From an uncultured Winogradskyella sp. (GTDB lineage Bacteria; Bacteroidota; Bacteroidia; Flavobacteriales; Flavobacteriaceae): a stretch of DNA of 64,000 bases. Below are positions 45,233-48,118 of the stretch, one piece after another. The notes under the pieces are model-generated. The model was not told the DNA's origin and searched no databases. It saw nothing but the letters and a program-made list of their open reading frames with translations. The position numbers and the translations under genes were made by a program. Within the stretch, counting starts at the first letter, position 1, and each line of letters begins with the position of its first letter. The DNA is taken from assembly GCA_913055905.1 (NCBI GenBank), contig CAJXLB010000001.1:62001-126000 (forward strand). Reading direction: 5' to 3'.

Positions 45233-45694
45233 ATGGAGTTATTACATGATTTTTTGCTGGACAAAGGTTATTCAAAAATTAAACTGAAACTCACCAAAAC
45301 CAATCATTTTGAAATAAAGGCCCAAATCAATGGCGTAAAAGGCCGTTTTATTTTAGATACAGGTGCGTCAAGTAGCTGTGTAGGTTTTGAAGCCATTGAG
45401 CGCTTCAATCTAAAAGTTAAGGATTCTGAAATCAAAGCCGTAGGTGCTGGTGCTTCTAATATGGCGACCAAAATCTCAAAATCAAACAACCTCAAAATTG
45501 GCAAATGGAAAAAGAATAGGGTTGCTTTGATCTTATTTAACCTCACTCATGTCAATGAAGGCCTCATTAATCATAATGCTGAACCTGTTGATGGCATCAT
45601 TGGTGCAGACATCCTGAAAAAAGGCAAAGCCATCATTGATTACGAGAAAAAGTACCTGTATTTAAAAATGCAGGCACTAAACCGTAAATCGTAA
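45233..45694 (+). CDS. Retropepsin-like aspartic protease (clan AA)
   Basis: A 153-residue protein whose core is a single retropepsin-like domain: GRFILDTGASSSCVGFEAIERF with the catalytic D-T-G-A, a flap region VGAGASNMATKIS and the second-half motif DGIIGADIL. Such domains act as homodimers, each giving one aspartate. No signal peptide or membrane anchor is seen, so it appears cytoplasmic. It is 23 bp upstream of the response regulator in the same direction, which suggests a common transcript. Confidence 0.85.
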   Translation: MELLHDFLLDKGYSKIKLKLTKTNHFEIKAQINGVKGRFILDTGASSSCVGFEAIERFNLKVKDSEIKAVGAGASNMATKISKSNNLKIGKWKKNRVALILFNLTHVNEGLINHNAEPVDGIIGADILKKGKAIIDYEKKYLYLKMQALNRKS

Positions 45695-45717
45695 ATCCAA
45701 CTAAGCCCAAACTCACC

Positions 45718-46344
45718 ATGAAACCTAGTATTATAATTGCAGACGATCATCCCTTAGTACTAAAAGGACTGCACGACTTTTTAACCGAAAAAAAGTACAA
45801 TGTCCTTGCTAGCGCTAAAAACGGAAAGGAAGCCTTGGCCTTGATAAAAGCGCACAGACCCGAATTAGCCATATTGGATATTAAGATGCCTTTTTATTCA
45901 GGTCTGGAAATCGCCGAAAAATGTAAAGCTGATGGTATAAAGACTAAAATCGTACTTATAACCTTCGAGAAAGATGAAAGTGTGTACAAGGCCGCTAAAT
46001 CTTTAGGTGTTTACGGCTATGTTCTCAAGGAATTCGCTTTAGATGAAATTGAAACCTGTATTGCTACGGTTCTAAAGGATAAACCGTATTTTAGCCCTGA
46101 GCTTATTGCCTATATCGAAGTTGACGATACGCCAAAACTTCTGGAGGAACTAACGCCTTCGGAGTTGAATATTCTCAAGCTAATCGCACAAAATAAGACC
46201 GCTAAGGAAATTGGTGACGAATTATTCTGCTCTAGACGGACCGTTGAGAAGCACAAAAGCAATATTATAAGGAAGCTAGAGATTGATAAAACACCTAACA
46301 GCCTGTTAATCTGGGCTAAAGAGCACCAAGAGCATTTAATCTAA
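45718..46344 (+). CDS. NarL/FixJ-type response regulator, no adjacent kinase
   Basis: A 208-residue two-domain regulator. The receiver (about 1-120) has the acidic pair D9-D10, the phospho-acceptor D54 in ILDIKMP, T82 and K104. The LuxR-type helix-turn-helix is at about 141-190 (LTPSELNILKLIAQNKTAKEIGDELF and TVEKHKSNIIRKL). No histidine kinase gene is in the window, so the partner is elsewhere. Two perfect 7-2-7 inverted repeats, the spacing recognised by NarL-type dimers, lie directly downstream; the first begins 3 bp after the stop codon. Confidence 0.95.
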   Translation: MKPSIIIADDHPLVLKGLHDFLTEKKYNVLASAKNGKEALALIKAHRPELAILDIKMPFYSGLEIAEKCKADGIKTKIVLITFEKDESVYKAAKSLGVYGYVLKEFALDEIETCIATVLKDKPYFSPELIAYIEVDDTPKLLEELTPSELNILKLIAQNKTAKEIGDELFCSRRTVEKHKSNIIRKLEIDKTPNSLLIWAKEHQEHLI

Positions 46345-46346
46345 AA

Positions 46347-46366
46347 TATACGTAAGGTTACGTATA
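46347..46366. promoter_or_regulatory. 7-2-7 inverted repeat, site 1
   Basis: TACGTAA-GG-TTACGTA, with one more matched T-A pair and one A-T pair outside: a perfect palindrome apart from the 2-bp centre. Inverted heptamers with a 2-bp spacer are the known arrangement for NarL-type regulators. It lies 3 bp after the stop of the NarL-type regulator gene. Confidence 0.7.
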
Positions 46367-46483
46367 GTGTCTCATTATTTTATTTCTGAATTTTACGTAG
46401 TTATTAATTAAGGGTTAATAACGAGCTATTAATTAGTTCTTAGGGGATTAAGTAGCCTTGGATTTACGTCCAAGGCTTTTTTT
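46367..46483 (+). ncRNA. Candidate short transcript unit 1
   Basis: Between site 1 and terminator 1 there is no ORF. The stretch holds the block AATTTTAC (46389-46396) followed by G-TTATTAATTAAGGG, shared with unit 2 at the same offset from its palindrome, and an 8-bp hairpin GTTATTAA/TTAATAAC (46400-46422). If transcription starts in or after this block, an RNA of about 70-90 nt would end at the terminator. No consensus -7 element is seen, so expression is unproven. Confidence 0.35.
46454..46483 (+). terminator. Intrinsic terminator of unit 1
   Basis: AGCCTTGGA (46454-46462) and TCCAAGGCT (46469-46477) pair perfectly around TTTACG, followed by T residues. Confidence 0.9.
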
Positions 46484-46500
46484 GTGGATTCAATACTAAA

Positions 46501-46520
46501 AATACGTAATGTTACGTATT
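46501..46520. promoter_or_regulatory. 7-2-7 inverted repeat, site 2
   Basis: AATACGTAA-TG-TTACGTATT, a perfect palindrome apart from its 2-bp centre, with the same TACGTAA heptamers as site 1. The centres of the two sites are exactly 154 bp apart. Confidence 0.7.
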
Positions 46521-46622
46521 GCGGAGCATCGTTTTAATAGCCAATTTTACAATGCTATTAATCAACGGCCTCAAATTCAATTCTTAAAAGCCTTAGATTG
46601 AGAACGGTTCAAGGCTTTTTTA
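46521..46622 (+). ncRNA. Candidate short transcript unit 2
   Basis: The segment after site 2 repeats the unit-1 block: AATTTTAC at 46543-46550 followed by GCTATTAATCAACGG, at the same 33-bp offset from the palindrome centre as in unit 1. A hairpin TTAATAGC/GCTATTAA lies at 46534-46561. The segment ends in terminator 2. Only an 11-codon ORF (46552-46587) is present. A short regulatory RNA is one reading; expression is unproven. Confidence 0.35.
46586..46622 (+). terminator. Intrinsic terminator of unit 2
   Basis: AAAAGCCTT (46586-46594) pairs with AAGGCTTTT (46611-46619) around a 16-nt loop, followed by further T residues. The stem core AGCCTT/AAGGCT is the same as in terminator 1. Confidence 0.75.
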
Positions 46623-46631
46623 AAACATATA

Positions 46632-46748
46632 ATGACGTACAACATGGAACATCAATCGCAAACCTCTGACAAATTTTTAATTGTGCTCCTTACCATAGTC
46701 TCCTTAATTGTGGTTTCTGCAAACGTCGCAGTTAATTTTTTAAGTTAA
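46632..46748 (+). CDS. Membrane micro-protein, unknown
   Basis: A 38-codon ORF (or 34 codons from the second ATG at 46644). The product is a short polar N-terminus, MEHQSQTSDKF, then one hydrophobic segment (LIVLLTIVSLIVVSANVAV) ending NFLS, a typical single-pass small membrane protein. It lies right after the second short unit and is followed by its own hairpin terminator. Size alone would be weak evidence; the strongly membrane-like segment and the terminator support it. Confidence 0.45.
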   Translation: MTYNMEHQSQTSDKFLIVLLTIVSLIVVSANVAVNFLS

Positions 46749-46787
46749 TTTTAGTTAGTTAGTAAGCCCTTTGGCACAAAAGGGAAA

Positions 46788-46822
46788 TAAAGCACAGTTC
46801 TAGAGAGAGTTGTGCTTTTTTA
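46788..46822 (+). terminator. Intrinsic terminator after micro-ORF
   Basis: AAAGCACA (46789-46796) pairs with TGTGCTTT (46811-46818), followed by T residues. A smaller hairpin CCCTTT/AAAGGG (46767-46784) precedes it. Confidence 0.8.
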
Positions 46823-46836
46823 ATTAGTCTTAAACT

Positions 46837-46869
46837 AAAAAAGCAAGGCCAATTAGCCCTGCTTTTTTT
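46837..46869 (-). terminator. Terminator of sucA/sucB (bidirectional hairpin)
   Basis: AAAAAAGCA and TGCTTTTTT pair, with an inner GGC/GCC after one mismatch. T runs on both strands let it end the minus-strand suc genes as well as plus-strand transcripts. Confidence 0.8.
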
Positions 46870-46888
46870 AATCTCTTGTTGCCCTCTA

Positions 46889-48118
46889 CTATAACTCTAG
46901 AGCTTTCTTGATATCGTTATCCATCAACAGCTCTACAGGATTTTCAAGCGCTTCCTTAACAGCAACCAAAAATCCTACGGATTCCTTGCCATCAATGATT
47001 CTATGGTCATAGGATAAAGCCACATACATAATTGGACGTATCTCTACCTGCCCATTTACAGCAACTGGTCGCTCTACAATATTATGCATGCCTAATATTC
47101 CGCTTTGAGGAGGGTTTATAATCGGTGTAGACAACATGCTACCAAATACACCACCATTGGAAATGGTAAATGTTCCTCCTGTCATTTCATCTACAGTTAT
47201 TTGCCCATCGCGTGCTCTTATGGCTAAGCGCTTCACTTCAGATTCTACACCTCTAAAGGTTAGATTTTCGGCATTCCTAATCACAGGAACCATTAAGCCT
47301 TTAGGCCCGGAAACAGCAATACTGATATCACAAAAATCATAGGTAATCATTTCCTTGCCATCTATCATGGAATTTACGGCAGGATATTCTTTTAAAGCTC
47401 TTACTACAGCTAGGGTGAAGAAACTCATAAACCCTAGGCTAACACCGTGCTTTTCTTTAAAGGTTTCTTTGTACTCTTTACGAAGTTCAAAAATAGGAGA
47501 CATGTCTACCTCGTTAAAGGTGGTTAACATGGCCGTTTCGTTCTTAGCAGACACCAAGCGTTCAGCAACCTTACGTCTTAGCATAGATAATTTAGAACGC
47601 GACTCGCCTCTTGAGCCTCCCGTAGGTGTACCCATGGAAGGTACCGCCTTTACGGCATCGTCTTTTGTTATTCTTCCGTCTTTTCCTGTGCCCTTTATCT
47701 GATTTGGGTCAATCCCCTTTTCGTCTAAAATCTTTTTAGCGGCAGGACTTGGTGTGCCTGTCGCATAGGTTTTTGATTCAGTTGAAGTCTTCTCGACTGC
47801 GCTCGAAGTGACAGTTTCGTTCTTTGGAGCCTCTTCTTTGGTTTCCTTAGGTTTAGAGGATGTGTCGCCTTCTGGCTTTTCTGCACTTGTGTCTATTAAA
47901 CACACCACTTCACCTACGGCAACAGCATCACCTTCTTCGGCCTTTAGGGTAATAGTTCCACTGGCTTCTGCTGGTAATTCCAATGTTGCCTTGTCGCTAT
48001 CAACCTCAGCAATAGCTTGGTCTTTTTCAACATAATCGCCATCTTCTACTAACCATTCTGCGATTTCAACCTCAGTTATGGATTCGCCTGGTGAAGGCAC
48101 TTTCATTTCTAAAATCAT
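46889..48118 (-). CDS. sucB: Dihydrolipoyllysine-residue succinyltransferase (2-oxoglutarate dehydrogenase E2)
   Basis: A 409-residue E2 component that transfers the succinyl group to CoA in the TCA cycle. The lipoyl domain (about 1-77) has the lipoylated lysine in [13 protein letters not shown]. An extended linker (about 78-120) follows, then the E1/E3-binding domain (about 121-160, [27 protein letters not shown]) and the catalytic domain with [11 protein letters not shown] near the C-terminus. The linker is partly encoded by a 25-bp sequence (47789-47813) resembling a dispersed flavobacterial repeat. It lies 20 bp downstream of sucA. Confidence 0.96.
47789..47813. repeat. REP-like palindromic sequence inside the sucB linker
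   Basis: The plus strand reads CTTCTCGACTGCGCTCGAAG followed by TGACA, a bulged inverted repeat. From memory this resembles a short sequence found in many copies in Flavobacteriaceae genomes, mostly between genes. Here it is in frame and encodes the [11 protein letters not shown] part of the linker. No second copy was noticed in the window. Confidence 0.45.

Follow-up and report, generated by a model that had tools for sequence, protein, structure and literature searches.

The locus lies in a 64,000-nucleotide stretch of DNA from an uncultured Winogradskyella sp. (the window, by which we mean the whole stretch analysed) and comprises a gene for an orphan NarL/FixJ-type response regulator (RR), two tandem cassettes that each begin with an inverted repeat, and a short gene for a predicted microprotein (Table 1). 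The regulator passes the Pfam cut-offs for both of its domains (Response_reg, E = 3.6e-25, 88.7 bits; GerE, E = 1.7e-14, 53.6 bits), and residues D9, D10, D54, T82 and K104, which we take to have roles in phosphorylation, are invariant in an alignment of 11 sequences, with the phospho-acceptor site intact. Among the nearest solved chains are the NarL/FixJ regulators VraR, DesR, NarL and DevR, which share the combination of receiver and GerE HTH. Against the NCBIfam NarL equivalog the protein scored 94.8 bits, below the cut-off of 250, and it fell under the cut-off of every NCBIfam model among the 25 matches listed.

The two inverted repeats are perfect and lie 154 bp apart. Each is followed by a AATTTTAC block (starting at 46389 and 46543) with G[TC]TATTAAT next to it, and then by a hairpin and an AGCCTT/AAGGCT inverted repeat with a T-run; a preliminary description of the interval had reported all of these features, and all of them are present. 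It had also called the repeats NarL-type sites. NarL/FixJ proteins recognize inverted repeats of 7-2-7 geometry, for which the NarL consensus heptamer is TACYYMT. The geometry agrees with this, but the half-site does not, since TACGTAA (TACGTAG in some relatives) carries G as its fourth base and A as its seventh. Two exact 16-bp palindromes were found in the window against 0.17 expected (up to two mismatches allowed), and two matches were reached in 1 of 100 shuffles. The 2.95-Mb genome holds the same two exact copies, both at the locus, and none of the reversed-pattern control; a whole-genome search for sites of the A type (TACGTAA) or G type (TACGTAG) gave none beyond the regulator locus.

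The spacing behind the palindromes is strict. TTTA[CG] or TTTG stands exactly 43 bases from the palindrome start in 133 of 140 cassettes, and a column profile over 139 cassettes reads.AnnTTT[A/G]C, where the flavobacterial sigma-A box is TAnnTTTG at −12 to −5 (PMC9723704). From this fixed offset and the position of the sigma-A box, transcription is predicted to start at 46400 and 46554, which would place the palindrome centres at about −43.5, a spacing that would suit an activator.

Table 1. Features of the regulator locus in the window (+, forward strand;., no strand assigned).
Feature	Position	Strand	Basis or remark
Retropepsin-like aspartic protease gene, syntenic with the regulator	45233..45694	+	Pfam Asp_protease_2, E 1.9e-13
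Orphan NarL/FixJ-type response regulator, receiver + GerE/LuxR HTH, 208 aa	45718..46344	+	Pfam
Regulator site 1 (predicted binding), TACGTAA-GG-TTACGTA, TACGTAAGGTTACGTA	46349..46364	.	centre ~-43.5 relative to predicted start 46400
-7 box 1, GAATTTTA	46388..46395	+	profile.AnnTTT[A/G], compare sigma-A TAnnTTTG
sRNA1 (predicted), ~84 nt	46400..46483	+	fold, alignment, model R1, terminator scan
sRNA1 hairpin I	46400-46422	+	GTTATTAATTAAGGGTTAATAAC
sRNA1 hairpin II	46423-46439	+	GAGCTATTAATTAGTTC
sRNA1 linker with AGGGG	46440-46453	+	TTAGGGGATTA
sRNA1 terminator	46454-46483	+	terminator scan
Regulator site 2 (predicted binding), TACGTAA-TG-TTACGTA, TACGTAATGTTACGTA	46503..46518	.	centre ~-43.5 relative to predicted start 46554
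-7 box 2, CAATTTTA	46542..46549	+	as for -7 box 1
Leader of predicted transcript 2: GCTATTAATCAA block, then terminator-like hairpin 46586-46617 with T6	46554..46643	+	sequence, fold
Microprotein gene, 34 aa, one hydrophobic stretch; alternative ATG 46632	46644..46748	+	conservation
Terminator-like hairpin behind the microprotein gene	46789..46821	+	terminator scan

Regulator and site type across relatives

A scan of GTDB genomes retained at least 80 named RR loci and placed the regulator also in Formosa, Gelidibacter, Psychroserpens, Bizionia, Xanthomarina, Aequorivita, Altibacter and others; within the genus, orthologues at 62–77% were found in 31 of the 36 genomes searched. The protease neighbour is present in 66 of 77 named loci, about 20 of which have a gap of ∼2 kb before the RR gene. 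Exact A-type palindromes occur in 45 of 149 relatives, distributed as 43 of 68 within the genus, 2 of 22 from other genera of the family and none of 59 from other families of the order; the reversed-pattern control gave a single match in each of two genomes (G037 and G132). The preliminary description had held that absence of the palindromes from close relatives that keep the regulator would speak against a link. All 31 genus genomes with the regulator carry A-type or G-type palindromes, and the five without an RR orthologue (G007, G019, G020, G023 and G026) have neither an A-type site nor a match to the small RNA described below.

By a TACGTA-based criterion, a site was found at 76 of 96 deduplicated RR loci, a set that includes far relatives and paralogues. 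The palindrome downstream of the RR gene is mostly of the form TACGTAA or TACGTAG, T and C forms being rarer, and the HTH of the regulator varies to match. Among the 76 loci with a site, 36 are A-type and 26 G-type; residues I184, N194, L197, I198 and W199 are present at every one of the 36 A-type loci, and the G-type loci have R184 in 15 of 26 and keep W199 in 3 of 26 (W199 accompanies G-type sites at L129 and a few other loci). A tree of 56 Flavobacteriaceae loci was based on three flanking proteins plus the receiver domain and excluded the HTH; on it, the seventh base of the site changes between A and G 13 times, and these changes track residues 197, 199, 194 and 184 of the DNA-binding domain. 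When all sufficiently variable RR positions were scanned, the top six were 197, 199, 198, 194, 193 and 184, all of them in that domain. Supported branches gave 10 independent pairs, in which residue 197 follows the site type 9.0 times and opposes it 0.0 times (p = 0.0039, a single-position value for a position picked from the scan). The tree from the receiver domain alone gave a paired test with just 2 supported pairs.

Site content across whole genomes was also compared with regulator type, and the two mostly agree. The 11 genomes whose regulator was seen to be G-like (G003, G004, G006, G009, G012, G016, G027, G030, G032, G035 and G063) each have 2–10 G-type sites, and an A-type site is absent from 9 of them, with one each in G012 and G063. 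The exception is G010, which has an A-like regulator yet holds two A-type and five G-type sites; several further A-type genomes have one or two G-type sites. At least one of the latter lies within ∼250 bp of a paralogous RR gene in G013, G017 and G031.

We conclude from coevolution, co-occurrence and fixed promoter geometry that the palindromes are very probably targets of the adjoining NarL/LuxR-type regulator. The many joint changes of regulator and sites suggest a unit of function, although shared movement of the HTH and its adjoining sites by recombination could also give rise to the coevolution signal. Paralogous regulators with an adjoining kinase gene were seen in three genomes (G013:C77:150895-153549, G017:C32:106703-109263 and G007:C2:402628-403274), each with its own palindrome 9–30 bp behind the regulator gene, and self-adjacent target sites may thus be a habit of this regulator family.

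The two cassettes

Cassette 1 is predicted to encode a conserved structured small RNA (sRNA1), a reading supported by fold, alignment and distribution. The RNA from 46399 to 46483 has a fold z-score of −4.46 relative to shuffles, of which 0 of 200 were as good. In an alignment of 25 relatives, drawn from 29 sequences pulled out by pattern, mean column identity is 83%; the 5′ half (both hairpins and the linker) is nearly invariant, and the terminator varies with compensatory changes. Ten of the 26 pairs of the consensus fold are changed on both sides in at least one sequence, nine of them in the terminator. With hairpins I and II almost unchanged, the evidence for covariation lies in the terminator and in one changed pair in L087. 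None of the 29 sequences contains a closed ORF of more than 6 codons. An extra hairpin of ∼30 nt at the 5′ end of sRNA1 was observed at six loci (L062, L064, L073, L075, L084 and L087).

A model of the RNA (R1) scores 95.6 bits on the sRNA1 of the window, a sequence that is part of its own training set, and matches 36 of 70 genomes, all of them among the 43 of the genus, with no match in the 27 from other families of the order. Each genome has one match, save G009 with two, and the matches adjoin the RR gene as judged by coordinates (for G060–G065, by reading the RR at the locus). The seven genus genomes without a match are the five that lack the regulator together with G012 and G015, which retain it; scores are weaker in a clade with a divergent first hairpin, and some other genera have a shorter core, GCTATTAATTAGTTCTTAGGGAGAATT, behind the site. 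The second sRNA1 copy of G009 (L081) has no palindrome and lies ∼400 bp behind the RR gene. A search of Rfam with window positions 45600–47000 gave six sub-threshold matches and none at the gathering threshold, and across 10 related loci tRNAs alone reached threshold.

The statement that no ORF of note lies in the interval holds within its limits, but a conserved ORF of 34 codons begins 14 bases beyond its end, at 46644. An ORF of 32–47 amino acids with one hydrophobic stretch is present at 65 of the 76 loci with sites, a count in which the ORF chosen is possibly not the orthologue where several short ORFs qualify. Over 37 sequences the ORF has a pN/pS of 0.20, with third codon positions the least conserved, and its product had no match in Pfam or NCBIfam. 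On these grounds the reading of cassette 2 is amended: it would also serve as promoter and leader of the conserved microprotein gene. The cassette 2 RNA has a fold z-score of −1.22, a structure that is not unusual, and its hairpin was not flagged by a simple terminator scan. At L027, the leader of cassette 2 carries an insertion of ∼160 nt, at a point ∼400 bp past the RR gene. In the window, a further inverted repeat with T-runs on either side (46837–46868) lies between the microprotein gene and the convergent sucB and is probably a shared terminator. Cross-pairing of the two hairpins of the window (12 nt) was considered and dropped, since by eye the pairing is lost in relatives.

Sites elsewhere in the genomes of relatives

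From the sites listed for relatives, 60 regions (L189–L248) were picked; one of them, L247, turned out to be the home locus itself and was set aside, so that 59 regions with 60 sites remained. The element A..TT[TC][AG] stands at one of two offsets in 48 of these 60 distant sites (offset 40, 35 sites; offset 39, 13 sites), with 0–4 at any other offset, and the stricter TTT form was found at offset 40 in 21 of 60 regions, L247 counted in. Forty-nine of the distant sites could be oriented, 44 of them with a downstream ORF. We took as cargo the longest ORF starting within 360 bp downstream, a rule by which some of the ORFs are probably no genes. Across other genomes of the genus, distant palindromes recur at pads beside core genes, each preceding a different single cargo gene, several of these defence-like. 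Thirteen pad pairs join different genomes, share related upstream ORFs and have cargo at both pads; in none of the 13 was similarity between the cargos detected at E 1e-8. Upstream identity was 73–95% in twelve pairs and 27% in one, and the pairs overlap, representing about eight pad groups.

When 20 cargo proteins were searched singly, Pfam gave no match for 10; the matched cargo includes DUF4062, DUF2971, AIPR, KAP NTPase, FRG, NACHT and SMODS proteins. Plainly non-defence cargo, such as MatE and lipoprotein-like ORFs, occurs as well. PADLOC gave strong single matches to cyclase, AbiU, PifA, RTasSLATT and other models (among 25 of 72 families listed). However, among 10 ordinary genes of the window 3 had a PADLOC match too, so that PADLOC alone does not discriminate as a defence test of the cargo.

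Many pad leaders look attC-like by eye. Membership of the distant sites in integrons is not supported by the IntI integrase model TIGR02249, which gave no match over its cut-off in any of 60 genomes, with sub-threshold matches in 59. No TACGTANNNNTACGTA was found in six regions around the best tyrosine recombinases. Three loci (L253:7672-9272, L256:832-2449 and L258:8603-10201) hold a tyrosine recombinase of ∼375–385 amino acids that is similar to integron integrases though below their cut-off, and next to it a small ORF whose product has CxxC-like motifs. Several short genes in a row follow the recombinase in L253, and L254 contains large repeated elements. Recurrent palindrome-bearing elements were also seen (L038, L041, L044, L046, L051, L203–L206 and L234–L236), twice in L235 with ∼2 kb between the copies, and several of them have a common upstream flank with ACTTACGGTAAACCGTAA or a leader ending ATATAAC[AG]AGTT.

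In the genus, the regulator might act as a genome-wide switch for exchangeable cargo, with the sRNA and microprotein as the core output of an alert system for defence genes and with regulator and pads shifting specificity in concert; we put this forward tentatively, as a possibility of less than even weight.

Readings of the locus and their meaning

We consider it likely that the orphan regulator activates two tandem promoters, one for sRNA1 and one for the leader and microprotein, and that the arrangement descends from a kinase-regulator pair. The regulator would bind both palindromes at about −43; promoter 1 would yield the highly conserved RNA of ∼84 nt ending at 46483, and promoter 2 a leader RNA, possibly attenuated at the hairpin, that continues into the microprotein gene, whose product has one likely membrane span. 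Phosphorylation would come from an unlinked kinase, the sRNA would base-pair or bind a protein through its invariant 5′ half, and the microprotein may give feedback. The computational support covers site-regulator coevolution and co-occurrence, promoter geometry, and conservation of the RNA and the ORF; from these we infer binding, activation rather than repression, the start sites and the order of evolutionary steps.

The origin proposed for the locus draws on TPR-HisKA_3 kinase and LuxR-type regulator pairs of Bacteroidota. In Aequorivita (L106:980-2989) and Altibacter (L113:977-2995) a TPR-HisKA_3-HATPase kinase gene lies directly upstream of the RR gene, so that both loci are such pairs at the same chromosomal place, and at both the microprotein ATG is immediately preceded by a variant site of the TACGTGT type with a −7 box. 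In contrast, the TPR-HisKA_3 kinase is missing at the corresponding place in the window and the regulator has no adjoining kinase; as the preliminary description had stated, none was seen among the neighbours examined. The genome of the window holds no close copy of this kinase elsewhere; the best matches reach 30% along one part of the protein and 27% along most of it. The locus would be most simply explained by a unit of kinase, regulator and microprotein from which the kinase was lost and to which the sRNA was added. The target of the ancestral pair would have been the microprotein gene itself, and in the lineage of Winogradskyella and its relatives the adjoining kinase gene would have been lost and the promoter duplicated, the new copy driving the sRNA.

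The preliminary description had proposed two paralogous short transcripts under control of the regulator. Its link between regulator and sites and the small RNA of cassette 1 are upheld by our analysis; cassette 2 is where the proposal falls short, as it is also the probable promoter and leader of the microprotein gene. In its original form, with two short RNAs ending at 46483 and 46622, we regard the proposal as unlikely; the microprotein would then be made, if at all, from another promoter or by minor read-through. The cassettes are 70% identical across 81 nt, T-runs stand behind both hairpins in the window, and 9 of 37 relatives have a TAnnTTT[GA] match within a stretch of 70 bases around the ORF start. 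The T-run behind the cassette 2 hairpin, examined in the same number of relatives, has at least 5 T in 19, which favours a transcript end, and 4 in 10, but 3 or fewer in 6 (2 were unparsed). Because the T-run varies in this way, the hairpin may either attenuate the transcript or terminate a second short RNA. What weighs against two short RNAs as the whole output is that a microprotein gene under purifying selection lies behind cassette 2 in most relatives and follows the site directly in the loci examined from Aequorivita and Altibacter. As the hairpin is terminator-like in roughly half of the relatives, a second short RNA combined with read-through is possible.

It is improbable that the regulator represses both promoters instead of activating them. 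NarL-family proteins are capable of either mode, but site centres near −43 and a tightly fixed distance to a degenerate −7 box are the usual design of an activator-dependent promoter, and this is the arrangement predicted at both cassettes. Still less probable is titration of the Rsm/Csr kind, in which the AGGG-bearing elements would sequester a CsrA-type protein, as do the GacA-controlled RsmX/Y/Z RNAs. A NarL-type regulator does adjoin an sRNA with repeated AGGG-bearing elements; however, neither CsrA (PF02599) nor Hfq (PF17209) had a match in the genome of the window, where 3 and 5 of 14 control genomes, respectively, were positive, so that neither classical CsrA titration nor Hfq-assisted pairing is likely. 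Another RNA-binding protein could take the part of CsrA, and our guesses for the invariant AGGG-bearing elements are pairing with CCCU stretches or binding of another protein. That the palindromes belong to another factor and adjoin this regulator by coincidence is scarcely credible, given that they co-occur and coevolve with its HTH.

A response regulator that activates small RNAs is a known kind of circuit, exemplified by GacA-RsmX/Y/Z, LuxO-Qrr and OmpR-OmrA/B. The locus resembles these in that a response regulator is predicted to drive an sRNA, and differs from them in having no Rfam match and no CsrA or Hfq, and in that the sRNA gene adjoins that of the regulator and is paired with a microprotein gene. 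The arrangement, the RNA and the microprotein were not found in the literature searched, Rfam, Pfam or NCBIfam, and no paper naming the locus in its title or the opening of its abstract was found. A conserved structured sRNA of Flavobacteriaceae, Rfp18, is described in Flavobacterium psychrophilum (PMC9723704); its likeness to sRNA1 is one of description, and the term 'response regulator' is absent from the main text of that paper.

Judged from sequence and its conservation, we regard the conserved regulator-sRNA-microprotein locus as real. With it the Flavobacteriaceae would gain an sRNA together with its probable transcription factor, binding site and promoter and an accompanying microprotein. 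The repeated switch between A and G sites with matching HTH changes offers a natural experiment in the rewiring of a response-regulator regulon and, as the site marks predicted promoters of swappable accessory and defence-like genes in relatives, regulated defence expression would be directly testable.
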